Assembly (NCBI RefSeq): GCF_001889265.1
Contig: NZ_CP018151.1
Location: 2,790,001 to 2,854,000, forward strand
Direction of reading: 5' to 3'
Length of the DNA stretch: 64,000 nt
DNA from: Microbacterium sp. 1.5R
GTDB taxonomy: Bacteria > Actinomycetota > Actinomycetes > Actinomycetales > Microbacteriaceae
Both the position numbers and the translations under genes were made by a program. Below, in pieces: positions 43,319 through 56,342 of the stretch. The notes under the pieces are model-generated. The model did not search any database. It was given only the letters and a program-made list of their open reading frames with translations, and was not told the DNA's origin. Within the stretch, counting starts at the first letter, position 1. The number at the start of each line of letters is the position of its first letter.

Positions 43319-44463
43319 GGGGTTCCTTCCATTGCAGTTGTCCACCCGAAGGCGGCGGTGAGATTCTCTTCGGCGAGCCCCAGACCCGTGGTCATTCCGA
43401 TGCCGGTGGTCGCGGCGAGCACCAGCACCCCCTCGTCGACCGTGTCGATGAGGAAGTCCTTCGACGCCTTCGCATACACGCCCTGCCAGCGCTCCAGCAC
43501 CCGTGGGGTCGGCATCTCGAACAGCGCCTCCGCCTCGGCGAGGAACGCCGTGAACGCGGCCTCGGGTTGGAACGGCTCCGGCGCGGTCGATGTGGCGTGC
43601 GAGTCGCCGATGATGAGCGTGCCGTCCGGCAGCTGCGTGTACATCTGATTGAGATCGAGCGCGGCGAGGTCCGGACGCTCCGAATGCAGGCGATCGCGGA
43701 GCGCGGCGGTGGCGGCACCGTCGGCGAAGCGTCCGTAGCGGACGAGCGACCACCCGGTCAGCAGCGGGGCGGAGAGCGGATGCCGGAGACTCACCGCTGC
43801 ACGCATCATGTCGAGAGCGCACCGGACGACGCCTGACCGTTCCGCCACCTCCGGCAGCAGCTGGTCGATGTCGTGATTCGCCGCGACGACGACCGCGCCT
43901 GTGGTGATCGCGCCTCTCGTCGTCTCGACGCGGCGTCCGGCGACGGAGGTCGCCGCCGTGCGGAAGCGGAAGTCGACGCCCAGTCCTGTGAGGTGCCGCA
44001 CGATCGCCGCGGCGGCGGTGCGCGGATCGGTCTGCAGGTCGGTCTCGATGTGCGCTCCGCCGAGGAGTCCCCGGCGACGGAGCGGGGCGAGGCGCAGCAG
44101 CGCATCCGCATCGAGCATCCGGATGCCGCCATCGGCCGCCGCCTGCTCGAGCACGGCGATCTCGTCGGCGTGGCGGGCGGCGACCAGCGTCCCCGACTCG
44201 CGGATCCAGAACCCTGCATCCTGAGCGAGGCGCAGCCACAGGTCTCTGGACAGGTCCGCGTAGCGCCGGGCCTCCCCCGTCTGCGCGCCGATGCAGAGGT
44301 GGCCGAAGTTGCGGATCGTCGCGCCGACGGGAGCATCCGCTCTGTCGACGACGATGACGCTCAGACCCCGTCGCACCGCCGCGTACGCGGCGCCGAGGCC
44401 GATGATCCCCGAGCCGACGACCACGAGGTCGACGGAGTCGGTCGAGCCGGCGCGGCCGCTCAT
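43315..44463 (-). CDS. FAD-dependent oxidoreductase of phosphonate clusters (TIGR03364-like)
   Basis: A 382-residue DAO-type flavoprotein. The dinucleotide-binding VDLVVVGSGIIGLGAAYAAVRRGLSVIVVDRAD is at about 11-43, followed by ATIRNFGHLCIGAQTGEARRYADLSRDLW. The C-terminal ATTGIGMTTGLGLAEEN closes the FAD site. Relatives (glycine oxidase-like) oxidise amines to imines with O2. In this operon it is the natural candidate to convert 2-aminoethylphosphonate or its N-methyl form to phosphonoacetaldehyde, replacing PhnW. ATG 44463 overlaps the phnE stop by 4 nt. Confidence 0.87.
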   Translation of the reverse strand: MSGRAGSTDSVDLVVVGSGIIGLGAAYAAVRRGLSVIVVDRADAPVGATIRNFGHLCIGAQTGEARRYADLSRDLWLRLAQDAGFWIRESGTLVAARHADEIAVLEQAAADGGIRMLDADALLRLAPLRRRGLLGGAHIETDLQTDPRTAAAAIVRHLTGLGVDFRFRTAATSVAGRRVETTRGAITTGAVVVAANHDIDQLLPEVAERSGVVRCALDMMRAAVSLRHPLSAPLLTGWSLVRYGRFADGAATAALRDRLHSERPDLAALDLNQMYTQLPDGTLIIGDSHATSTAPEPFQPEAAFTAFLAEAEALFEMPTPRVLERWQGVYAKASKDFLIDTVDEGVLVLAATTGIGMTTGLGLAEENLTAAFGWTTAMEGTP

Positions 44464-46196
44464 CGGAACACCTTGCGCATCCACATCGCGAGCCCTTCGA
44501 CGACGAGCACCGTGACGAGGATCATCAGTACGATCGCCGTCACGGTCTCATAGCGCGAACCCTGGCTGGCGTTGAGCAGGTAGTACCCGACACCGCCTCC
44601 GCCGACGATGCCGAGGATGGTCGCGGCGCGGATGTTCGTGTCGAGCATGTAGAAGCTGTGCCCGATGAGGGCCTGCATGCCCTGCGGCACGGTCGCCGAG
44701 GCGTAAGTCTGCAGCCGGGTGGCGCCGACCGCCCGCAGGGCCCGCTCGGGCCCACGGTCGACCTCCTCGAGGGAATCGGCGATCAGCTTGCCGAGCAGAC
44801 CGATGCCGCCGATGGCCAGCGCGATGACTCCCGCCTGGGCGCCGAGGCCGGTGATGACGACGAGTACGATCGCGAGGATCAGCTCGGGAATGCCGCGGAT
44901 GCCGACGAGCAGGAAGCGCGCGATGCCCCGCGCTCCCGCTCCGGGTGCGACGTTGCTCGCGGCGAGGGAGCCGAGGATCAGCGACGGCAGCAGCGTGAGC
45001 ACCGTCGCCGCGAGTGCGATCGCGACCGTGTCCCGCATGGCCGCGATCATCGCCGACGCCTCATAGCTGCCGAATGACGGCGGCCAGAACTTCGCTGCGA
45101 CCTCGGGGAGCTTGGCCCAGAAGGTGAAGAAGTCCATCCAGTTGATCTGGCTGACGACGACGCTGCCGATGACGACGAGCACCGCCGTCCCGATGCCGAT
45201 CGTGTTGCGCACCCGCTCCGCGGTCCACGGTCGACGCACGGCGGTCTGCGGGCTGGCCGCCCACTCCGGGCGCTCCGTCGTCGCCGCGCCCGTCGCCCCG
45301 CGCAGTCGCGGGTGGATGATGCGGTCGATCCACGACCGCGTCTGCCGCTGCTGGCCGAGCATTGCCCCGCGCACCAGGCTCGACACGATCTCCATCACGA
45401 CGCACAGGACGAAGATGACCAGGGCGATGCCGAGGCCCTTGCCGTAGTTCAGCGACTTGAAGGCGTAGGACATCTCGAGTCCGAGGCCGGCCACGCCCAC
45501 GTAGCCGAGCACGACGCTGCCGCGCAGGTTGATGTCGTTGCGGTGCAGCACCGTCGCGACCCAGCTCGGCAGCACCTGGGGAAGGATTCCTGAGGCGAAC
45601 TCCTGCATCTTCGATCCGCCCGCGGCGCGGATCGCGAGCCGGGGGCCCTCGTCGATCTGCTCGATCGCGTCGGCGAACATCTTCGAGATCATCCCGATCG
45701 AATGGATGCCGATGGCGAGGATGCCGGGCAGGGTGCCGAGCGAGAACATGAGAACGAACGCCATCGCGAGCACGACGTCCGGCAGCGCTCGGGTGAGCAC
45801 TCCCACGAACCGCGCGGCGGCACGCCATCCGTTGCCGGGGGTCGTGTTGGAGGCTGCGAGGTAGGCGATCGGCACCGACAGGGCGGCGGCGAGCAACGTG
45901 CCGACGAGCACGAGCCCGACGGTGAGGGCGATCAGCCAGGCGAGGTCGGCCGGTTCAGGGAACGAGAGGCCGCCGACTCGGGCCATGAAGTTCTCGGCGT
46001 TGCCCCAGCTCTGCACCATCGCCGGGATCGAGATGCCGACCTCGTCGACCGCGAGGATGCCGAGCACCAGGAGCGCCAGCAGCGTCAGCCCGGCGGCGAT
46101 GCGCTCGGCGGAGATCGGGCGGCGAGGAGCTCGATCGGCGACACTCGTGCGTGCGGGGGTCGCGTGCCCCCGCGGCGGGTCCGAGAGGACGGTCAT
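44460..46196 (-). CDS. phnE: Phosphonate ABC transporter permease, two PhnE units fused
   Basis: A 578-residue membrane protein made of two homologous permease halves (about 40-290 and 340-578), each with about six helices and the EAA-type coupling loop. Compare FADAIEQIDEGPRLAIRAAGGSKMQEFASGILPQVLPS with IADSLEEVDRGPERALRAVGATRLQTYASATVPQGMQA. PhnE normally dimerises; fusion gives the same pore from one polypeptide. A charged linker of about 50 residues joins the halves. ATG 46196 overlaps the phnC stop (ATGA). Confidence 0.92.
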   Translation of the reverse strand: MTVLSDPPRGHATPARTSVADRAPRRPISAERIAAGLTLLALLVLGILAVDEVGISIPAMVQSWGNAENFMARVGGLSFPEPADLAWLIALTVGLVLVGTLLAAALSVPIAYLAASNTTPGNGWRAAARFVGVLTRALPDVVLAMAFVLMFSLGTLPGILAIGIHSIGMISKMFADAIEQIDEGPRLAIRAAGGSKMQEFASGILPQVLPSWVATVLHRNDINLRGSVVLGYVGVAGLGLEMSYAFKSLNYGKGLGIALVIFVLCVVMEIVSSLVRGAMLGQQRQTRSWIDRIIHPRLRGATGAATTERPEWAASPQTAVRRPWTAERVRNTIGIGTAVLVVIGSVVVSQINWMDFFTFWAKLPEVAAKFWPPSFGSYEASAMIAAMRDTVAIALAATVLTLLPSLILGSLAASNVAPGAGARGIARFLLVGIRGIPELILAIVLVVITGLGAQAGVIALAIGGIGLLGKLIADSLEEVDRGPERALRAVGATRLQTYASATVPQGMQALIGHSFYMLDTNIRAATILGIVGGGGVGYYLLNASQGSRYETVTAIVLMILVTVLVVEGLAMWMRKVFR

Positions 46197-47038
46197 GAGG
46201 CCCGCGCCTTGTCGAGCTGGGCGACGTCGACCGTGATCTCGGTGAGTTCGTCCTGCACGGCGCGGATCTCTGCGGTGGTCGTGGCGACGCGGCCGTAGAT
46301 CTCCATGACCTCGGCCTTGGTCAGGTCGCCGGTCGGGGTGTCGAGCACGATCTCGCCGTGGCGCAGCCCCACGATGCGGTCGGCCCACGAGATCGCGAGG
46401 TCGACCTGGTGCAGGCTGCAGACGACCGTGAGCCCCTCGTCGGCGGCGATCTCACGGATCAGCGCCATCACCTGGTCGCTGGACTCCGGGTCGAGGGATG
46501 CGACGGGCTCGTCGGCGAGCAGGATGTCGGGCTTCTGCATCAGCGCGCGGGCGATCGCCACGCGCTGCTGCTGGCCGCCGGAGAGGGTGTCGCTGCGCTG
46601 ATAGGCCCGGTCGAGCAGCCCGACGCGATCGAGGTGCTCGAGGGCGCGCAGCTTCGCCGCCTTCGAGTAGCCCCAGAGGCCGAGCCGCGGGCCGCGGACC
46701 TCCGACAGAGATCCGGTGAGCACGTTCTCGAGCACCGTCAGCGAGGGCACGAGCTCGAACTGCTGGAAGATGAATCCCACCCGGCTGCGGAGGGCGCGCA
46801 GCGCCTTGCCCTTGAGCGTCGGGACCTTCGCGCCGAGCACCTCGATCTCACCCGAGGTCGGCACCTCGAGACCGTCGAGGTGGCGCAGCAGCGTCGACTT
46901 GCCCGAGCCGGAGAGCCCGAGCAGCACGACGATCTCGCCGCGTGAGACCTGCAGCGATGCGTTCTTCAGCGCGGTGGTCGAGCCGAAGGTCTTCGTCACA
47001 CCGTCCAGGCGGATGAGGGCATCGGTTGCCGTGTTCAT
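46193..47038 (-). CDS. phnC: Phosphonate ABC transporter ATP-binding protein
   Basis: A 281-residue ABC ATPase with Walker A LLGLSGSGKSTLLRHLDGLE, Q-loop FIFQQFELVPSLTVLENVL, signature TLSGGQQQRVAIARALMQ, Walker B ILLADEPVASLD and H-loop CSLHQ. The C-terminal 40 residues extend beyond the core, as in PhnC. It energises import with the fused PhnE and PhnD. GGAGAA is 6 nt before ATG 47038. A 129-bp structured gap separates it from phnD, so it may be made at a lower level than the binding protein. Confidence 0.93.
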   Translation of the reverse strand: MNTATDALIRLDGVTKTFGSTTALKNASLQVSRGEIVVLLGLSGSGKSTLLRHLDGLEVPTSGEIEVLGAKVPTLKGKALRALRSRVGFIFQQFELVPSLTVLENVLTGSLSEVRGPRLGLWGYSKAAKLRALEHLDRVGLLDRAYQRSDTLSGGQQQRVAIARALMQKPDILLADEPVASLDPESSDQVMALIREIAADEGLTVVCSLHQVDLAISWADRIVGLRHGEIVLDTPTGDLTKAEVMEIYGRVATTTAEIRAVQDELTEITVDVAQLDKARAS

Positions 47039-47082
47039 GTCAGTTCTCCAGGGTCGTGGCGTCGAGCGTGATTCTTGCGGGT

Positions 47083-47173
47083 GAGCGCCCCGCGCTCCGC
47101 TGCCCCGGGGTGGGAGCACACTGCGGAACGGGGGCGCTCGGCTGACGCTGCGGTCAGCGATCGGGCGTCAGCC
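47083..47173 (-). promoter_or_regulatory. Two intercistronic stem-loops between phnD and phnC
   Basis: Stem 1 at 47140-47173 pairs GGCTGACGC with GCGTCAGCC (9 bp, 16-nt loop) and includes the phnD stop codon. Stem 2 at 47083-47139 pairs GAGCGCCCC with GGGGCGCTC (9 bp) around a GC-rich interior. No T run follows. The likely role is mRNA stabilisation of the phnD part or partial termination. Confidence 0.6.
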
Positions 47174-48097
47174 CTGGCACTGCTCCGCTTCGGTCTCCTT
47201 GCAGATGTCGCGGATCAGGTCGTAGTACGCGTCGTCGACGGGCTTGGTGGCGTAGAACACGCTGCGGAACGCATCAGTGTCCGCGCCCTCGATGCCGGCG
47301 GCGATGATGTCGTCGATCGTGATCTCGGAGAGTCCGTCGATGAGCTCCTGCGCGACGTCGTCCGGCAGTGTCGACGAGTAGACGAGCGGCGCTCCGGGGA
47401 CCATGGTCTCGTCGATGACCTTGACGGCATCCGACTTCTCGACCTCGGAGTCCTCGGCGAATCCGACCTCGCACTCGACGCCTTCGCCGACCTTCTGCAC
47501 GCTCACGTCATGCTTGCCCGCGAAGACGGGCGTGATGTCGGCCTTGGGGTCGATGCCCGCCTCGAGCAGGTTGTAGGAGGGGAAGAGGTATCCCGACGTC
47601 GACGAGGGATCGACGAAGCAGACCTTCTTGCCGGCGAAGTCCTCGATGCTCGAGATGTCGCTGTCGGCAGGCACGATGGCCTGGGAGTAGTACCCGGGCT
47701 CCTGGCCCTCCTCGGTCACGATCGAGGAGATCGGGGTGAGCTTCGCGCCGTTGTTCGTGGCGGTGACGTAGGTGAAACCGGAGAACGAGGCGACATCGAC
47801 CTTGCCGGCGACGGCTGCCTCGATGAGCGCCGCGTAGTCGGTGGACTCGTGGTACTCCACCGTCTTGCCGGTGATCTCGGCGATGTAGTCCATGAGCGGC
47901 TGGTAGTTCGTCTCGGTGTCGACCGAGTCGGGCACGACGCCGAAGACGAGCGTGTTCTCGTCGACGGCGAATCCGCCGGCGGCCGATGATGCGTCGGCAC
48001 CGGACGCGCCGGTGGCCTCTGCGGAGCCGGAGCAGGCGGCGAGGCCGAGCGCGAGGATCGCGGCGCCGGCGAGTACGGGGAGAGCGCGGAGCTTCAT
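47168..48097 (-). CDS. phnD: Phosphonate ABC transporter substrate-binding lipoprotein
   Basis: A 309-residue protein with a lipoprotein signal peptide: MKLRALPVLAGAAILALGLAAC, cleavage before Cys22 in LAAC. The mature part is PhnD-like: TLVFGVVPDSVDTETNYQPLMDYIAEITGKTVEYHESTDYAALIEA, then DVASFSGFTYV, and FVDPSSTSGYLFPSYNLL with the SSTSG phosphonate-binding loop. It captures aminophosphonate outside the membrane for PhnCE. First gene of the operon. AAAGGTCC precedes the ATG. Confidence 0.93.
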   Translation of the reverse strand: MKLRALPVLAGAAILALGLAACSGSAEATGASGADASSAAGGFAVDENTLVFGVVPDSVDTETNYQPLMDYIAEITGKTVEYHESTDYAALIEAAVAGKVDVASFSGFTYVTATNNGAKLTPISSIVTEEGQEPGYYSQAIVPADSDISSIEDFAGKKVCFVDPSSTSGYLFPSYNLLEAGIDPKADITPVFAGKHDVSVQKVGEGVECEVGFAEDSEVEKSDAVKVIDETMVPGAPLVYSSTLPDDVAQELIDGLSEITIDDIIAAGIEGADTDAFRSVFYATKPVDDAYYDLIRDICKETEAEQCQG

Positions 48098-48152
48098 GAG
48101 GACCTTTCAGAGTGGGAGGGGTGATCCACGAGCCACTCTGACAGGGCAACAG

Positions 48153-48184
48153 CCAAGATATGTACCTAACTTGGAAGAGTTCAA
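48153..48184 (-). promoter_or_regulatory. phnD promoter with 22-bp near-palindromic operator
   Basis: On the minus strand TTGAAC (48179-48184), an 18-bp spacer and TATCTT (48155-48160) form the promoter. At 48153-48174 the halves CCAAGATATGT and ACCTAACTTGG form a 22-bp palindrome with 18 of 22 symmetric positions and a GTAC centre. It covers the -10 and most of the spacer, so a bound repressor would block transcription. The divergent GntR/UTRA gene starts 94 bp away and is the likely binder. Confidence 0.75.
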
Positions 48185-48267
48185 GGTCCGTTCACCCGGT
48201 CTTTCCTCGGATGAACATCGAGGGAACGCGCAACCGTTCCACCTCGGTAGCGAAGTAGTATGCCTAT

Positions 48268-49011
48268 GTGGCCGAAGCTGTATACACCCAGATCGCAGAC
48301 GACCTCCGCGCGCAGATCGCGGCGGGCACCCTGCGCCCCGGCGACGACGTGCCGACCGAGGCGGAGCTCGCCGAACGGTGGCGCACCTCGCGGGGTCCGA
48401 TCAGGAACGCCCTCGCCGCCCTGCGCGGAGAGGGCCTGATCGAGACGGGGCGGGGACGCCCCGCGCGGGTCGTGTCGCGCAAGGCCAGCCAGGCGGTCGA
48501 TGTGTCGGTGCCGTTCACTCGCTGGGCCCGCGATCTCGGGGTGACTCCGGGCGCGCAGACGCAGGAGTTGAGCCTTCGCAGGGCCGGTGACCGCGCAGAA
48601 CTGCTCGGAGTGTCGCCCGAAGACACGATCGTCAGTGTCGTGCGACTGCGCCTGCTCGACGGCAGGCCGACGATGCTCGAGCGGCTCTTCTACACCGAGG
48701 CAGTAGGACGACGACTGCTCGACGTCGACACGGACGAGGTCTCGATCACGGAGTACCTCGGGTCGGTGGGACACCCGATCGTCGGGCTCGAGCACCAGAT
48801 CGACGCCGTCGCCGCCGACGAGCAGGATGCCGCCCTGCTGCGCGTGCCGCAGGGAACGCCGATCCTTCGACTCAGCCGCATCTCCCGTGATGCGAGCGGG
48901 CGCATCTTCGAGGCGTCCGAAGATCGCTACCTCAGCGAGGTGGTGCGGTTCACGGTCGCGGCGTCGGGGATCTCGACGGACGGGCACTACATGCGTGCAG
49001 TGGGCGGCTGA
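48268..49011 (+). CDS. GntR/UTRA-family regulator of the phosphonate operon
   Basis: A 247-residue protein. The GntR winged helix is at about 1-70: YTQIADDLRAQIAAGTLRPGDDVPTEAELAERWRTSRGPIRNALAALRGEGLIETGRGRPARV in pieces. The C-terminal UTRA effector domain runs about 90-240, with DTIVSVVRLRLLDGRPTMLERLFY and PQGTPILRLSRISRDASGRIFEASEDRYL. This is the PhnF/HutC branch. Divergent from phnD across a 170-bp gap with a clear operator; likely a repressor relieved by a phosphonate-related ligand. GTG 48268 follows TAGTAT at 6 nt (leaderless). Confidence 0.88.
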   Translation: MAEAVYTQIADDLRAQIAAGTLRPGDDVPTEAELAERWRTSRGPIRNALAALRGEGLIETGRGRPARVVSRKASQAVDVSVPFTRWARDLGVTPGAQTQELSLRRAGDRAELLGVSPEDTIVSVVRLRLLDGRPTMLERLFYTEAVGRRLLDVDTDEVSITEYLGSVGHPIVGLEHQIDAVAADEQDAALLRVPQGTPILRLSRISRDASGRIFEASEDRYLSEVVRFTVAASGISTDGHYMRAVGG

Positions 49012-49326: not shown

Positions 49327-50469
49327 TCAGACGATCGGCAGCAGCGCCGAGACGACCCAGCGGCCGTCGACTTCGCCGGCGCTGAATTCGCCGCTGGCAC
49401 CGAGAACTCGTTCGGCCATGCGGCCGATGCCCGTGCGGCTCGAGGAGAGCTCTCGACGCGGCGTGACGGAGAGCGGACTGCTCACCGCCATCTTCGCGGC
49501 GTCGTCGTCGATGTCGAATCGGATCTCGACTTCGCCCGCGCCGGCGTACTTGAGGACGTTGGTGGCGGACTCTCGCATGATGCGCGCGAGGATGATCTCG
49601 GCGGCCCGCGGGACGCGCTCATCGGAGGGGTCGCCGATGACGGCCACGGCATGGCCGGCGGCTTCGAACTCCTGCGCGGCCTCCTCGACGGAGGCCACCA
49701 GATCACCGGAGGGCATTCCCTCGGAGCGGGGTCCGTCGTCTGCGAGGTCGATCACGAAGCGGAGGTCGGTCATCGCCTTGCGTGCGGCGATGCGAATCGC
49801 CTCCTGCGAATCTCTGCTCGTGCGATCGTCGTCGAGCATCTGCACGTGCAGCGCCACCACGGTGAGGTGGTGCGCGATGCTGTCGTGCAGCTCGCCGGCG
49901 ATCCAGCGCCGCTCAGCGAGTACTGCCTGGCGTTCCTGCTCGGCCTTCTCGGCCAGTTGCATCTCGAGCGTCCGCCCTCGAGCGAATGCCAGGCGAAGCG
50001 CATAGCCGACGGCTCCGGATACTGCGGCGCCGACCAGGAAGATGCCGATGTTGAACGCATCCGTCGAATCGCCCATGGCGACCAACGCGGATGCGACGAG
50101 GAAGACTCCGACATAGGACAGGACCAGTGAGGTCCACCCCAGGCGCACGATCAAGCCGGCCGCGAAAGCGGCGACGGTCAGCACCTGGGCTTCGATGCCG
50201 GGGATGAAGGATAGGGCGAACACGACGCCGAGGGCGTATGTCGCGATGAATGGCGACCAGAGGAAGAGGCCGAGGACTGCAGTGGATGCGATCCCGATTG
50301 CCGCTGTCAGAGGTTCGAGCCCCGGAGGGAGGAACAGTCCGACGATGTCGAAGATGACGATGGTCCCGACGACCGCCAAAACGGCGATGCGTTCTATCGT
50401 GCTGAGCTTCTCGCCCCTGCCGAGTCGGGTGACGTCAGAGCGGTCACCCGTCGAAAGACTTGAAGCCAT
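49327..50469 (-). CDS. NarL-type sensor histidine kinase
   Basis: A 380-residue membrane kinase. About five or six helices (35-170) with almost no extracytoplasmic loop form the sensor. The dimerisation region is ERRWIAGELHDSIAHHLTVVALHVQML, phospho-acceptor His in ELHDSIAHH. The N-box is ESATNVLKYA. The expected DxGxG box is missing (KMAVSSPLSVTPRRE), whereas the GIGRMAERV segment is kept, so ATP binding is atypical or weak. It is divergent from its response regulator. AAAGGAG lies upstream of ATG 50469 at a 10-nt spacing. A 15-codon ORF with a perfect ribosome site ends 29 nt before the start. Confidence 0.88.
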   Translation of the reverse strand: MASSLSTGDRSDVTRLGRGEKLSTIERIAVLAVVGTIVIFDIVGLFLPPGLEPLTAAIGIASTAVLGLFLWSPFIATYALGVVFALSFIPGIEAQVLTVAAFAAGLIVRLGWTSLVLSYVGVFLVASALVAMGDSTDAFNIGIFLVGAAVSGAVGYALRLAFARGRTLEMQLAEKAEQERQAVLAERRWIAGELHDSIAHHLTVVALHVQMLDDDRTSRDSQEAIRIAARKAMTDLRFVIDLADDGPRSEGMPSGDLVASVEEAAQEFEAAGHAVAVIGDPSDERVPRAAEIILARIMRESATNVLKYAGAGEVEIRFDIDDDAAKMAVSSPLSVTPRRELSSSRTGIGRMAERVLGASGEFSAGEVDGRWVVSALLPIV

Positions 50470-50498
50470 ACTTCAGTATCTCCTTTTCGCCATATAGA

Positions 50499-50546
50499 TT
50501 AGCGGTAGAAGCCGAAGAAGTGACCAACCTGGTTCCAGAAAGACAT
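50499..50546 (-). CDS. Candidate 15-residue aromatic peptide upstream of the sensor kinase
   Basis: The minus strand reads AAAGGAGGTGA (50553-50563), a full-length complement of the 16S 3' end and the strongest ribosome site in the window, then 6 nt, then ATG and 15 codons giving MSFWNQVGHFFGFYR and TAA. Seven residues are aromatic (four Phe, Trp, Tyr, with His), with a single Arg at the end. No signal peptide or cleavage motif is visible. It lies in an AT-rich gap, 29 nt before the kinase gene. It may be an autoinducer sensed by the kinase, a membrane-active peptide, or a translational leader. No match is recalled; the ORF is too short for gene finders. Confidence 0.6.
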   Translation of the reverse strand: MSFWNQVGHFFGFYR

Positions 50547-50695
50547 ATACGTTCACCTCCTTTATTGCACTTTTGACTAGCGATGTACTCATCTTCTCGG
50601 TGATCTGCGAGCGGCACATCTGTCTCACGGCTACACCTCGATAGCCAAAGGTCTAATACCTCGCGCCGCAGGTAGACCCCGGTTAGGCTTCCTCC

Positions 50696-51349
50696 ATGTC
50701 CCAAATCCGCGTCGTGATCGTCGATGACGATCCCCTGGTGCGCTCAGCGCTCTCTCACTTCGTCTCCCGCGACCCGGAGATCACGGTGATCGCCGAGGCG
50801 GAGTCCGGGCTCGAGGGCATCGAGGTCGTGGAACGCGAGCGTCCCGACGTCGTGATGATGGACGTGCAGATGCCGGAAATGAACGGCATCGAGGCGACGG
50901 CGGTGATCAGCGAACGCTGGCCTGAGATCAAGATCCTCGCGGTCACCACGCTGGACGGCAGCGACACCGTGCTTCCGATGCTCAGCGCAGGTGCGTCGGG
51001 CTATCTGCTGAAGGACTCGAGCGCGGCGAGCATTCTCGAGGGTGTGCGAGAGGTGTACAGCGGAGCGAGCTCGCTGTCGCCGCGGATCGCGTCGCTGCTG
51101 ATCAAGCACGTGCGGGATACGGAGCCCGTCGGGGGCGACGACACCCTGGAGGCGCTCACGGATCGCGAGCAGGAGGTGCTGCAGCGACTCGCGCAGGGGA
51201 TGTCCAACGCCGAGATCGCGCGCACACTGATCGTGTCGGAGGGAACCGTGAAGGCCCACCTCGGCCGCATCATGTCGAAGTGGCACGTGCGCGATCGCGT
51301 GCAGATCCTCGTCACGGCAGCGCACGCCGGGCTGGTCGACTTCCGCTGA
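50696..51349 (+). CDS. NarL/LuxR-type response regulator
   Basis: A 217-residue protein. The receiver domain is at 1-120, with IVDDDPLVRSAL (acidic pocket), VVMMDVQMPEMNGIE (phospho-acceptor Asp about 55), VTTLD and YLLKD (switch Thr and Lys). The C-terminal LuxR HTH reads LTDREQEVLQRLAQGMSNAEIARTLIVSEGTVKAHLGRIMSKW. It is the natural partner of the divergent kinase and probably controls the peptide/kinase promoter in the 226-bp gap. ATG 50696 is preceded by TAGGCT at 6 nt (leaderless). Confidence 0.92.
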   Translation: MSQIRVVIVDDDPLVRSALSHFVSRDPEITVIAEAESGLEGIEVVERERPDVVMMDVQMPEMNGIEATAVISERWPEIKILAVTTLDGSDTVLPMLSAGASGYLLKDSSAASILEGVREVYSGASSLSPRIASLLIKHVRDTEPVGGDDTLEALTDREQEVLQRLAQGMSNAEIARTLIVSEGTVKAHLGRIMSKWHVRDRVQILVTAAHAGLVDFR

Positions 51350-51358
51350 GGCGGGACC

Positions 51359-51422
51359 CCTGACCGGCGAGACCGCTGACCGGCGGGATCGCTGACCGGC
51401 GGGATCGCTGACCAGCGGGATC
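51359..51422. repeat. Four tandem 16-bp repeats after the response regulator
   Basis: Unit GCTGACCGGCGGGATC, four copies (the first and last with substitutions), filling the 71-bp gap to the convergent HNH gene stop at 51421. Similar GCCGGGCAC-type repeats continue into the HNH gene's C-terminal codons. It may act as a bidirectional transcription end or recombination site. Confidence 0.85.
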
Positions 51423-53136
51423 ATTGGAGTGAGACTGTTGAGGCGCGTCCATTGAGCCGGGCACGGCGAGACGGGCCCGTTGAGCCGGGCACTGTGAGTC
51501 CGGCCCGCTGGGGCTGGCTCGCTGAGTCTGGCCGGCTGTTCGGGATCAGCAGCACTTGCCGTGAGGATGCCGCCGCGTAGCACCCGGTTCGAACGAGGCA
51601 CCTTCGGTCACGGTCCGCGGGGAGGCTGTGTTGTGGGGTGCGCCAGCGTTGGTCGGGGTCCCACCAGTTCGGTCCACGGACTTCGGGGAGCCCGTTGTTC
51701 ATACGGATCTCCCACTGCGAGGTGCCCAGGGATCGGTGGTGCCACCAGCACAGCGGCACACCGTTGTCGGTATGGGTCGGCCCACCGCGGGCGTGTTCGG
51801 TGACGTGATGGATCTCGCACCAGGATGCGGGCACGTGACACCCGGGGATGAGGCATTCCTTGTCGCGGACGATGATCGCCCGGCGTTGATGCACGGTGAA
51901 CACGCGGTCGGTGGTGCTGATCCCGATGATGCGCCCCTCGTCCAGGAGCACCCGTTGGATCGCCCCCGCACATGCGGTCTGCGCCGCGACGGACACAGGC
52001 ACATGCGCACCGGATCCGGGGATCGTCGCCCACCCGCCATTGCCCGCACCACCACCCGCGCCGGCGATGCCCGCACCGAAGGCAGAACCTTCCGCATGAT
52101 GGGCGAGGTCTGTCGCGTCGACGGTGACGACGAGCACCGGGGATGCACCACCGAGCGTGGGCATGTCCTTGTGACGGGCGGCTATCGCGAGAGCGGCGGC
52201 GAGAGCATCGTGGCGTTTCTGCGACGCCGTGCGATCATCGAGCACGCTGCGCTCATCCACATTGAACGGATCAACACCCGGGTCAGCACCGGTGTCTGTG
52301 TCTGTGTCTGTGTCTGTGTCTGTGTCTGTGTCTGTGTCTGTGTCTGTGTCTGTGTGACCGGTGTCACCGCTGGGGGTGAAGAACACTCCCGGCATGGGCG
52401 GGCCGTCACCCTTCGGGTTCAGCATCGCGTCCAGGATCAGCTGCAACTGGGCCGCGGCATCCGGAGTCAGATACCCCCGGATCGCATGCATCCCGTCCGT
52501 GAGACGACCGATCGTGATCCCGCGCTTGCGCCGCGCGTCCTCATCCTTCGGCTCCTCCCCGTCCGGGTCGAACATCGAGGCGAGATCCTCCGCAAGAGAT
52601 TTCAAATCCTGCACCGTCGGCGCCGGACCAGAATCCGAGCCCCCGCCGATCCCGTGCCCGCGGGCGCACCCCGCCAACGCCACATCCGCCGCCAGCCGCT
52701 GATCCGAGCTCAATCGGTCCCACACCCGCTCGATCGGGCCCGTCGCCGCCAGAAACCCCGCCACACCCACCACACCATCCAACAAGGCCACGCGCATCTC
52801 CGACCACCGCGCCGGCATCCGCTCCCCCGCCAGACTCACCGGCCGGCGCACCAGATCGACGACCCTGTCGACCCGGGACGCACCCCGCACATCCACGCCC
52901 ACCATCCGCTGCACCAGCTCGTTCACCCCGCGACACCCTGCCGCATGCGGAAAATCCACAGGATCCCCGGTCGCCACGGTCTCCACGATCACCGCCTCGG
53001 CCCGCCGGAACACGGCCCCCGCCGCCTGCAGCACCGCGACACGCTCCGCATCGCTCAACCCCGCCAACGCGTCATCACACAGCACCGCATCAAGGTCAGT
53101 GACGACCCGACCCAGACGCTCCACGATGCTGTTCAT
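51421..53136 (-). CDS. DUF222-HNH endonuclease-like protein
   Basis: A 571-residue protein. An N-terminal DUF222 helical region (about 1-330) is followed by an HNH nuclease domain (about 440-500): RDKECLIPGCHVPASWCEIHHVTEHARGGPTHTDNGVPLCWWHH has paired Cys, the catalytic HH and the terminal WHH. Between them (about 265-300) lies a Thr-Asp dipeptide run encoded by a hexanucleotide repeat. These proteins occur in many copies in Microbacteriaceae; substrates are unknown. The last 45 residues (Ser/Arg/Gln-rich) are encoded by repetitive DNA and probably not part of the fold. The ATG 53136 is the first in frame. Confidence 0.88.
   Translation of the reverse strand: MNSIVERLGRVVTDLDAVLCDDALAGLSDAERVAVLQAAGAVFRRAEAVIVETVATGDPVDFPHAAGCRGVNELVQRMVGVDVRGASRVDRVVDLVRRPVSLAGERMPARWSEMRVALLDGVVGVAGFLAATGPIERVWDRLSSDQRLAADVALAGCARGHGIGGGSDSGPAPTVQDLKSLAEDLASMFDPDGEEPKDEDARRKRGITIGRLTDGMHAIRGYLTPDAAAQLQLILDAMLNPKGDGPPMPGVFFTPSGDTGHTDTDTDTDTDTDTDTDTDTDTGADPGVDPFNVDERSVLDDRTASQKRHDALAAALAIAARHKDMPTLGGASPVLVVTVDATDLAHHAEGSAFGAGIAGAGGGAGNGGWATIPGSGAHVPVSVAAQTACAGAIQRVLLDEGRIIGISTTDRVFTVHQRRAIIVRDKECLIPGCHVPASWCEIHHVTEHARGGPTHTDNGVPLCWWHHRSLGTSQWEIRMNNGLPEVRGPNWWDPDQRWRTPQHSLPADRDRRCLVRTGCYAAASSRQVLLIPNSRPDSASQPQRAGLTVPGSTGPSRRARLNGRASTVSLQ
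52292..52355 (-). repeat. Hexanucleotide repeat encoding a Thr-Asp tract
   Basis: About ten and a half perfect copies of GTGTCT on the plus strand (ACAGAC on the coding strand) encode a Thr-Asp run in the linker of the HNH protein. Unit length 6 keeps the frame when copies are gained or lost. Confidence 0.95.
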
Positions 53137-53388: not shown

Positions 53389-53850
53389 TCAGCGCCGGAG
53401 CGGCTCGGCCTTCATGAAGACGTCGACCGCGTCTTCGCTCTCGAGCTCGAAGCCGTGCCTCTCGTACAGCCGTCGCGCCGGACTGCCCTGCAGCACATTG
53501 AGGCGGAACGGCCGGTCATCGCCCGCATGACGCGTCTCCAAGGCGTCCGCCAGCACCGCGGAGCCGAGGCCGCGGCCCTGCTGAGCGGGATCGAGGTAGA
53601 AGTGCTCGATCCACACCGCGTCGCTCTCGGGCCTCACCGCGATGAGGCCCACGTCCTGTCCGGCCACCACGATCACTCGCGTGTTCTGCGGGACGAACCC
53701 ATCGAGGAACCGCTGCCGCACACGCACCGGGTCGAAGCGTCCGAGACGCTCCAGATCGGCGCGCATGACGATCGCTCGCAGCTCCGACATCCAGTGCGCA
53801 TCCGACGGACTGCTCTCTCGAAGACTCCACCCGGCGCACACAGCATCCAT
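53389..53850 (-). CDS. GNAT-family N-acetyltransferase
   Basis: A 153-residue protein with the GNAT core: WSLRESSPSDAHWMSELRAIVM at the N-terminus, VAGQDVGLIAVRPESDAVWIEHFYLDPAQQGRGLGSAVL with the acetyl-CoA pyrophosphate loop QQGRGLG (about 92-98), and the C-terminal NVLQGSPARRLYERHGFELES. Acceptor unknown. ATG 53850 is chosen because the fold starts about 8 residues later; a longer reading adds a Trp-Ser repeat encoded by (CGACCA)n DNA, which is unlikely to be translated. No strong ribosome site is visible. Confidence 0.84.
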   Translation of the reverse strand: MDAVCAGWSLRESSPSDAHWMSELRAIVMRADLERLGRFDPVRVRQRFLDGFVPQNTRVIVVAGQDVGLIAVRPESDAVWIEHFYLDPAQQGRGLGSAVLADALETRHAGDDRPFRLNVLQGSPARRLYERHGFELESEDAVDVFMKAEPLRR

Positions 53851-53876
53851 ACAATCACGCAGGCCACGCACCCGGA

Positions 53877-53932
<56 letters not shown>

Positions 53933-54837: not shown

Positions 54838-55058
54838 CTCCGGGCTTTTGTCCTGTCAGATGACGGCGCTCCTGCGGAGGAGCACCGTGGCGCCGCTCGG
54901 ACCAGACGGGACGAACCCCGGAACCCTAGGCGCTATCGAGATCGACCGTACCGGCCGATGGTGACGAGAAGGTGAACGACCGCCATCCGACCGTCGCGGA
55001 GATCGCGCATCGAGTCGCCGATTACGATCGAAGGACCGCCCCTGCAGGAAGGTCGCTC

Positions 55059-56342
55059 ATGCCCGTCACCCCGGACGCTCTCGCCCACGCCGAGGATCTC
55101 GCCGACTTCGTCGCCGCCTCGCCTTCGAGCTATCACGCCGCCGCCGAGGTGGCCAGGCGCCTCGAGGATGCCGGTTTCGCGCGTCTCGAAGAGGATCAGG
55201 CCTGGGATGTCGCCCCCGGCGGACGCTACGTCGTCGTGCGAGACGGTGCCGCGATCGCGTGGACGGTTCCGGGGGACGCCACCGCGACCACGCCCGCTCA
55301 CATCCTGGGTGCTCACACCGACTCCCCCGGCTTCAAGCTCAAGCCGCAGCCGACGACCGGTTCGAGGGGCTGGCTGCAGGCGGCCGTCGAGGTGTACGGC
55401 GGTCCGCTGCTGAGCTCGTGGCTCGACCGCGAGCTGCGTCTCGCCGGACGGCTGGCCCTCGCCGACGGACGCGTGGTGCTCGCCGACACGGGAGCGCTGC
55501 TGCGGCTTCCCCAGCTCGCGATCCACCTCGACCGCGAGGCGAACACGGGCCTCGCGCTCGACAAGCAGTTCCAGACGCAGCCGGTCTGGGGCCTCGGCGA
55601 CCCGACCCAGGAGGACATCCTGGCCGAGCTCGCCGGTTCGGCCGGCGTCTCGGCATCCGACATCCGCGGTTACGACGTCGTGATCGCCGACACAGCGCGC
55701 GGCGCGATCTTCGGCAAGGACCGCGCGTTCTTCGCTTCCGGCCGACTCGACGACCTCGCCTCGGTGCACGCCGGCGTCGTCGCGCTCGAGAAGATCGATA
55801 CGGCAGTCAGCGGACCGATCGCGATCCTCGCGGCGTTCGACCATGAAGAACTGGGCTCCAACTCCCGCTCCGGCGCGGGCGGCCCCCTGCTCGAAGACAT
55901 CCTCGGCCGCGTCTACGACGCGCTCGGCGCCGACGCCTCCGAGCGTCGACGCGCGTTCTCCGCGTCGTGGTGCCTGTCGAGCGACGTGGGCCACTCGGTG
56001 CACCCGAACTACGTGCACAAGCACGACCCCGTCGTGCAGCCGGTGCTCGGCTCGGGACCGATCCTCAAGCTCAACGCCAACCAGCGCTACGCGACGGATG
56101 CCGTCGGCTCCGCCGCCTGGCGCGGCTGGTGCGACACCGCCGACGTGGTCACGCAGGAGTTCGTGTCGAACAACAACGTGCCGTGCGGCTCGACGATCGG
56201 CCCGATCACGGCCACGCGTCTCGGCATCCGCACGGTCGACGTCGGCATCCCGATCCTGTCGATGCACTCGGCGCGCGAGCTCGCCGGCGTCTCGGACCTG
56301 CACGACCTCACCCGCGTCGCCGGAGCTTTCTTCGCCGGCTGA
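55059..56342 (+). CDS. apeB: M18-family aminopeptidase (aspartyl aminopeptidase type)
   Basis: A 427-residue dizinc exopeptidase. Metal ligands and catalytic residues appear in LGAHTDSPGFKLKPQP (His, Asp), AAFDHEELGSNSRSGAGGP (Asp/Glu-Glu) and SSDVGHSVHPNYVHKHDP (His), in the M18 order. It cleaves N-terminal acidic or other residues from peptides in the cytosol. ATG 55059 has GCAGGAAGG upstream; an in-frame ATG 87 bp earlier adds an unconserved Arg-rich stretch. The 222 bp between the EamA and M18 starts hold the two hairpins and no gene. Confidence 0.92.
   Translation: MPVTPDALAHAEDLADFVAASPSSYHAAAEVARRLEDAGFARLEEDQAWDVAPGGRYVVVRDGAAIAWTVPGDATATTPAHILGAHTDSPGFKLKPQPTTGSRGWLQAAVEVYGGPLLSSWLDRELRLAGRLALADGRVVLADTGALLRLPQLAIHLDREANTGLALDKQFQTQPVWGLGDPTQEDILAELAGSAGVSASDIRGYDVVIADTARGAIFGKDRAFFASGRLDDLASVHAGVVALEKIDTAVSGPIAILAAFDHEELGSNSRSGAGGPLLEDILGRVYDALGADASERRRAFSASWCLSSDVGHSVHPNYVHKHDPVVQPVLGSGPILKLNANQRYATDAVGSAAWRGWCDTADVVTQEFVSNNNVPCGSTIGPITATRLGIRTVDVGIPILSMHSARELAGVSDLHDLTRVAGAFFAG

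Follow-up and report, generated by a model that had tools for sequence, protein, structure and literature searches.

A conserved 15-codon gene in the gap separating divergent DesK-type kinase and NarL-type regulator genes of Microbacterium, and a candidate family of actinobacterial peptide signals

The region under study belongs to a 64,000-nucleotide stretch of the Microbacterium sp. 1.5R genome (hereafter the window), in which the gap separating a divergent DesK-type histidine kinase gene and a NarL-type response regulator gene harbors a short open reading frame (ORF), MSFWNQVGHFFGFYR (Table 1). An earlier note on this DNA had drawn attention to the ORF of 15 codons, to its Shine-Dalgarno (SD) sequence upstream of the kinase, and to the low GC content of the gap; all three observations hold, with 50% GC in the gap against 69.5% in the window and AAAGGAGGTGA present as a single copy in the window when one mismatch is allowed. 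The motif GGAGGT-N5-10-ATG occurs once in the window compared with 2.2 occurrences expected by chance, so the SD alone is no proof of a gene and the case rests on conservation. The window peptide contains no Cys, no signal sequence, and no double-glycine leader, and eight short peptides compared with NCBIfam gave no match up to E 1. The same note had suggested that a second mini-ORF, MAKRRY, might couple translation to the kinase. This frame does exist, with 3 nt separating its end from the ATG of the kinase, but the coupling role was rejected, since a corresponding ATG is found in just 2 of the 47 orthologous linkers; it looks like an incidental product of the stretch holding the kinase's own ribosome binding site, whose GGAGAT is present in 41 of these 47 linkers. 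A known RNA element in the gap was likewise rejected, as no Rfam match within 50300-50900 reached the gathering score, and a scan of the gap for sigma-70 promoters and T-tailed terminators found none.

Table 1. Features of the kinase-regulator gap and its two flanking genes (window coordinates).
Feature	Position	Strand	Remarks
15-codon peptide gene, MSFWNQVGHFFGFYR	50499-50546	minus	ATG at 50546, TAA end at 50499; counterpart in 47/47 intact kinase orthologs
Peptide-gene Shine-Dalgarno, AAAGGAGGTGA	50553-50563	minus	5-10 nt SD match in 47/47 orthologs
29-nt peptide-kinase linker with kinase Shine-Dalgarno, AAAAGGAGAT	50470-50498	minus	MAKRRY frame inside, at 50473-50493
DesK-type histidine kinase, HisKA_3, six predicted membrane helices; proposed receptor	49327-50469	minus	Profile domain, PDB match, AlphaFold2 model
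NarL/LuxR-type response regulator, Response_reg + GerE	50696-51349	plus	Divergent from kinase
Candidate regulator operator AGACCT-N10-AGGTGT, consensus AGACCTTTGGCCANNAAGGTCT	50633-50654	minus	Three mismatches in window; gap alignment

The kinase core matches the DesK kinase core in the PDB with an E-value of 9.5e-23. An AlphaFold2 model of the kinase (pLDDT 75, pTM 0.44) agrees with the multi-helix sensor with minimal loops described in the earlier note, and places six N-terminal helices, joined by short connecting loops, at 24-46, 53-68, 73-87, 93-110, 113-133, and 135 onward. Of 48 named loci, a set that includes one from Leucobacter, 47 have a regulator of the same family oriented divergently to the kinase.

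Kinase orthologs were collected by protein search of 198 Microbacterium genomes, which yielded 47 intact kinases with 58-100% identity and a broken one (G034), in which the peptide frame is shifted as well. The peptide ORF and its SD (longest match 5-10 nt) are present at all 47 intact orthologs, 71-91 nt upstream of the kinase start, and the ORF comprises 15 codons in 45 cases and 13 codons in the other 2. The 36 distinct peptides, encoded by 43 distinct DNA sequences, follow the consensus M[TS]FW[QE]Q[VL][GA][KR]x[FL]G[LI]xR; among the 45 full-length peptides, W4 and G12 are invariant, the latter with its codons split 24/21 between two, and Cys occupies position 8 in four. Parsimony changes across codons 2-15, mapped on the kinase tree, number 74, 35, and 110 at codon positions 1, 2, and 3, a low-second/high-third pattern that is absent from the flanks (169/179/189 in the 60 nt upstream and 53/70/45 in the 26 nt downstream). 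The median pairwise dN/dS is 0.36, based on 754 of 990 pairs, the remaining pairs being identical or beyond the dS limits and the two 13-codon genes being excluded. The earlier note had suggested looking for the short frame ahead of orthologous kinases and running a dN/dS test, and both turned out in favor of the gene; judged by its substitution pattern, the ORF evolves as a protein-coding gene.

A strict SD-ATG-[ST]FW pattern, too narrow to catch 15 of the 47 orthologs, was matched in 35 of the 198 genomes of the genus; 33 of these matches lie at the kinase locus (32 intact plus G034), and the two elsewhere come from genomes without a kinase ortholog (G110 and G191). The named Microbacterium loci (L154-L196), many of which derive from the same genomes as the ortholog set, carry the peptide ORF in 43 of 43 cases. 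In Microbacterium sp. NIBRBAC000506063, the peptide MTFWNQLAKFFGVGR is intact and the kinase and regulator each match in three pieces of different frames, as frameshifts or sequencing errors would produce; this record (L215) either reflects faulty sequencing or contradicts the idea that peptide and kinase decay together. Two loci, L036 and L038, contain orthologous peptide genes without the last two codons, which encode the 13-mers MTFWQMMAKAFGL and MTFWQMMAKAFGF; the C-terminal Arg is hence dispensable in that lineage.

Beyond this genus, kinase orthologs were detected in records of Leucobacter, Propionibacterium, Actinomyces, Ancrocorticia, Ruaniaceae, and Tessaracoccus; the named-genome scan retained 80 loci, with several of the records being metagenome-assembled. 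The first 14 gaps read, 11 of them outside Microbacterium, all contain a peptide ORF, the products including MTFWNHVARLLGIR, MTFWQQLAKLLGITR, MTFWSSLARFLGFR, MSFWSTVAYIFGIGR, MYIWRQLGIFFGFIR, MLWYQLARILGLRP, MSFWRAVGYFLGIFH, and others. In a Leucobacter metagenome contig (L203), five peptide genes, all with an SD of their own, stand in tandem ahead of the kinase; all five encode MTFWNALAYFLGFR and differ by synonymous changes only. Tessaracoccus caeni similarly has five related peptide genes in a row, one of which is cut by N and one of which has a TTG start.

Association of the short ORF with gene order was assessed on a set of 153 loaded loci, from which 4 without a kinase or regulator match, 12 duplicates, and 3 without a regulator in range were removed. 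Two patterns were scored, namely a C-x5-C end or an early Trp in ≤17 codons, and an SD was required. A short ORF fitting either pattern was found in 84 of 97 divergent pairs versus 0 of 37 tandem pairs, counts that are descriptive, as most loci were already known when the patterns were drafted and the Microbacterium orthologs make up 47 of the 97 divergent pairs; shuffled gaps of divergent pairs gave about 0.006 and 0.027 pattern matches per locus. The 13 divergent pairs that fit neither pattern comprise three with Trp-less relatives (L064, L084, and L085), six with Sec-type precursors, and four without an intact peptide (L048, which is broken, L056, L066, and L093). Two later searches (L234-L289) gave pattern matches at 11 of 18 divergent loci and at 0 of 32 tandem ones, although most of these divergent loci had been fetched before; the new ones, L241 and L238, both have the peptide, and the kinase stretch of L238 is identical to an earlier one.

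More distant kinases are accompanied by more diverse peptides. At 20 loci whose kinases are 29-44% identical, a related short ORF was read in 16 and none at L054, L056, L058, and L066. The C-terminal parts of these peptides include GIWDSLCRLLGLCS, IWTALCRLLGLCS, PFTELCKLLRICQG, WTTLCEVLGLCK, VWTWLCQQLGVCSN, and WEDICRILQFCS, with MWYWLGQVLRIWK representing the Cys-less types, and further peptides from other genera and families are DLGDWLCQMLGICA, FFEWLCQMFGICS, FLDDLCRYLKICQ, and GFWTWLCEASGFCK. In more distant divergent pairs, the peptides are mostly 12-36 residues long, often with a C-terminal C-x5-C. Furthermore, the gap gene of six divergent pairs belonging to other families within the order or class (L089, L090, L092, L094, L096, and L110) encodes a precursor of 51-114 residues that has a hydrophobic N-terminus and, at its C-terminal end or close to it, a C-x5-C or C-x6-C core. 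Assessed by eye and hydropathy, this N-terminus is an apparent Sec signal peptide in all six. The L094 precursor has 16 database homologs that share the leader and a W-x-C-x2-Y-G-x2-C core and vary in the middle; the named ones are hypothetical proteins of Glutamicibacter, with the exception of one Arthrobacter protein labelled as copper-binding CopC. For five of the six precursors, NCBIfam and Pfam returned only matches below the cut-off, including lactococcin 972 at E 0.06. Placing the window peptide in one family with the precursors and the Cys-type peptides would rest on their position, their partner genes, and a short core, without a significant sequence match.

Within the Microbacterium set (45 sequences), peptide divergence follows the membrane domain of the kinase far more than its catalytic domain. 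With the kinase domain and regulator controlled, the partial correlation between peptide and membrane-domain distances is 0.50, with 0 of 2000 permutations as high, in Mantel tests that remove shared ancestry in part only; the same test gives -0.002 for the kinase domain and 0.11 (P 0.06) for the regulator. When the kinase subdomains and both DNA flanks are controlled, the membrane domain retains a partial r of 0.45 (0 of 1000 permutations), and neither DNA flank correlates with peptide distance. Weak correlations with the membrane domain are seen for both flanks (0.17 and 0.19; P 0.012 and 0.028), which indicates that shared history partly remains. Along the kinase, the correlation peaks at helices 4-5 (0.47) and is missing for helix 6 (0.10, P 0.057) and the phosphotransfer helices (-0.007), while the catalytic subdomain shows a slight one (0.135, P 0.018). 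Co-divergence with the peptide extends to the N-terminal tail (partial r 0.44), so that a contact inside the cell is conceivable.

Alignment of the orthologous gaps revealed a conserved palindrome, AGACCTTTGGCCANNAAGGTCT, upstream of the peptide gene. With up to three mismatches, it was found at the locus in 19 of 20 genomes searched, with a sole second site in G128. Most simply, this palindrome would be the putative operator of the regulator, and its placement upstream of the peptide gene suggests autoregulation. A regulon defined by the palindrome was rejected, given the one extra site in 20 genomes and a looser form that was no commoner than its control (34 forward matches versus 37 for the reversed control in 15 genomes). 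Downstream of the peptide, a GC hairpin directly behind the stop codon was seen in 4 of 17 linkers examined (L050, L051, L060, and L067), with whole-linker energies of -33 to -63 kcal/mol and no T run, so the peptide gene looks like an independent cistron there; neither of the two window-clade linkers examined has such a hairpin. At nine loci (L057, L060-L064, L068, L084, and L085), a GATAAT- or CATAAT-like stretch lies just before the kinase start and suggests a separate, possibly leaderless, kinase transcript.

Taken together, these data lead us to consider it probable, with considerable room for doubt, that the ORF truly encodes a 15-residue peptide and that this peptide serves as an autoregulated signal and as the cognate ligand of its neighbor, the six-helix DesK-type kinase. 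In the proposed mechanism, the peptide would be translated from its strong ribosome binding site and leave the cell, presumably exported in leaderless form; the membrane domain of the kinase would bind and sense it, and the kinase would phosphorylate the divergent NarL-type regulator. The regulator would then bind the palindrome between the genes and may raise expression of both peptide and kinase, in keeping with autoinduction and quorum-sensing logic, and there may be outputs beyond the locus itself. Secretion is suggested by the Sec-like relatives together with the arrays, with the Sec-like leaders occurring in six distant systems and none in the window clade. The earlier note had envisaged either a peptide-signalling or a peptide-immunity system: the signalling half is favored by the co-divergence with the membrane domain, the tandem arrays, and the Sec-like precursors, whereas the immunity half is not, as a scan of seven neighboring genes recognised no immunity, peptide-exporter, or modification family. 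Points that count against the signal reading are the missing signal sequence of the window peptide, the failure to recognise a peptide exporter or signal-processing protease among the seven neighbors, the lack of any further established palindrome target, the co-divergence of the N-terminal tail, and the four divergent pairs without an intact peptide; the L215 record and the weak flank correlations lower its odds slightly.

Several alternatives have to be weighed against this reading. A rather unlikely one sees the peptide as a small regulator inserted in the membrane, a miniature counterpart of MgrB or SafA, which acts on the kinase inside its own cell and is never an intercellular signal. 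Such a role would agree with the absence of a leader in the window clade and of a recognised exporter nearby, and also with the co-divergence of the kinase N-terminal tail, which is presumably cytoplasmic; it fits poorly with distant relatives at the same position that have apparent Sec signal peptides and conserved C-terminal cores, and with copy arrays, which suggest dosage of a released product. It is improbable that the peptide is instead an antimicrobial or surface-active effector, which the two-component system senses for feedback or self-protection. Although the peptide is hydrophobic and aromatic with a net charge of +1 or +2, the arrays could raise its dose, and no further palindrome target was established, the seven neighbors scanned include no immunity or peptide-export family, and peptide divergence tracks the receptor domain. 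A surface-active amphipathic helix in particular was rejected, as helical amphipathicity is not above that of shuffled peptides (median P 0.28 for 51 peptides, with P < 0.1 in three). Less likely still is a cis-acting leader peptide whose translation controls the downstream kinase: the kinase does follow the ORF after 29 nt, and the linker between them is likewise conserved, but this idea is opposed by the stable GC hairpins between peptide stop and kinase at the four loci noted above, the five complete identical cistrons before the kinase in L203, the amino-acid-level conservation that tracks the kinase membrane domain, and the distant counterparts, which are 51-114-residue precursors with hydrophobic leaders. 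Finally, a chance ORF in AT-rich regulatory DNA, to which the expectation of about two SD-ATG combinations per window might point, is already refuted by the presence in 47 of 47 orthologs, the frame-preserving coding substitutions, and the occurrence in other genera.

On the broader scale, the balance tilts slightly toward an undescribed actinobacterial family of peptide signals, in which every signal has its own divergent pair of DesK-type kinase and NarL-type regulator, is encoded in the gap of that pair, and is sensed by it; the precursors would form a reductive series. This series might begin with Sec-secreted propeptides with a C-x5/6-C core (in relatives from Glutamicibacter and others), pass through peptides of 12-36 residues mostly with a C-x5-C end, and finish with the leaderless, mostly Cys-less 13-15-mers of Microbacterium, Leucobacter, and their kin, sometimes in arrays.

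Comparison with known systems places the candidate near several of them. Mature ComX arises by cleavage of a longer precursor and carries a prenyl group added by ComQ. The locus resembles ComX-ComP-ComA (ComQXPA) of Bacillus in having a short Trp-containing peptide gene adjoining a multi-helix HisKA_3 kinase with a polytopic sensor, together with a NarL/LuxR-type regulator, and differs from it in that the regulator is divergent, the peptide is unlike ComX, and no ComQ-like gene or polyprenyl synthetase is present among the seven neighbors scanned. Agr (AgrBDCA) and FsrABDC combine a peptide signal, a membrane kinase, and autoinduction with a LytTR-type regulator, the AgrB membrane peptidase, and a thiolactone precursor; the peptide and membrane kinase scheme is similar here and the Cys-type relatives could form a ring, but the regulator is of the GerE (NarL) type, the window peptide is Cys-less, and no AgrB-like peptidase was recognised among the seven neighbors. 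The double-glycine pheromones of ComCDE and BlpCHR are of similar length and sensed by a polytopic kinase, unlike which the window peptide has no double-glycine leader, nor is there a C39 peptidase-type transporter among the seven neighbors. Membership of ComQXPA, Agr, and ComCDE therefore fails because the maturation or export genes are not among the scanned neighbors, and for Agr also on regulator class. DesK is a membrane-fluidity thermosensor with no known peptide partner; the kinase core here is of the same family, with DesK structures matched, but a peptide gene accompanies it. Judged on gene content, the system works like ComX-ComP-ComA in kinase and regulator class and is not a member of it. 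Two traits of autoinducing-peptide systems in general are found, namely a conserved peptide gene paired with its own kinase and, within the limits of the Mantel tests, co-divergence of peptide and sensor domain. In the SHP/Rgg systems of streptococci, a tiny hydrophobic peptide gene likewise adjoins its regulator, but SHP is re-imported and binds Rgg intracellularly, whereas the candidate receptor here is a membrane kinase. The Com pathway has been placed in bacilli and clostridia (PMC8895600).

Genes of 15-codon size fall under the usual length limits of gene finders, so such systems may have escaped annotation in numerous sequenced genomes, also of named species. To our knowledge, peptide signalling via membrane kinases is known chiefly from Firmicutes, and no description of such a peptide family was found in a literature search whose coverage excluded most subscription journals and preprints. 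According to a 2016 review of quorum sensing in Actinobacteria, no evidence for it exists in Microbacterium, not even bioinformatic (PMC4748050). If the signal reading holds, the locus would represent a form of bacterial messaging not yet described for this genus of soil bacteria; it would also offer a compact receptor-ligand pair for testing, a natural progression that runs from a secreted precursor to a leaderless 15-mer, and a sensor on whose membrane helices ligand specificity can be mapped.

The surroundings of the locus show some further features. Phosphonate-type ABC transporter genes and a GntR-UTRA regulator gene adjoin the kinase (44460-49011), and within flanks of up to 4 kb at the 48 named loci, GntR and phosphonate-type ABC genes recur in 31-33 and EamA-type genes in 28. 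An M18 aminopeptidase gene (54972-56342), conceivably a peptide-trimming enzyme, lies about 3.6 kb past the regulator and is found near 16 of the 48 loci. In addition, a DUF222 gene (51421-53136, minus strand) contains a run of TGTGTC units at 52296-52357 that encodes an Asp-Thr repeat and is a possible variable tract, and the called N-terminus of a GNAT acetyltransferase ORF (53389-53916) is a WSWSWSWS run derived from a short DNA repeat, so its true start may be downstream.
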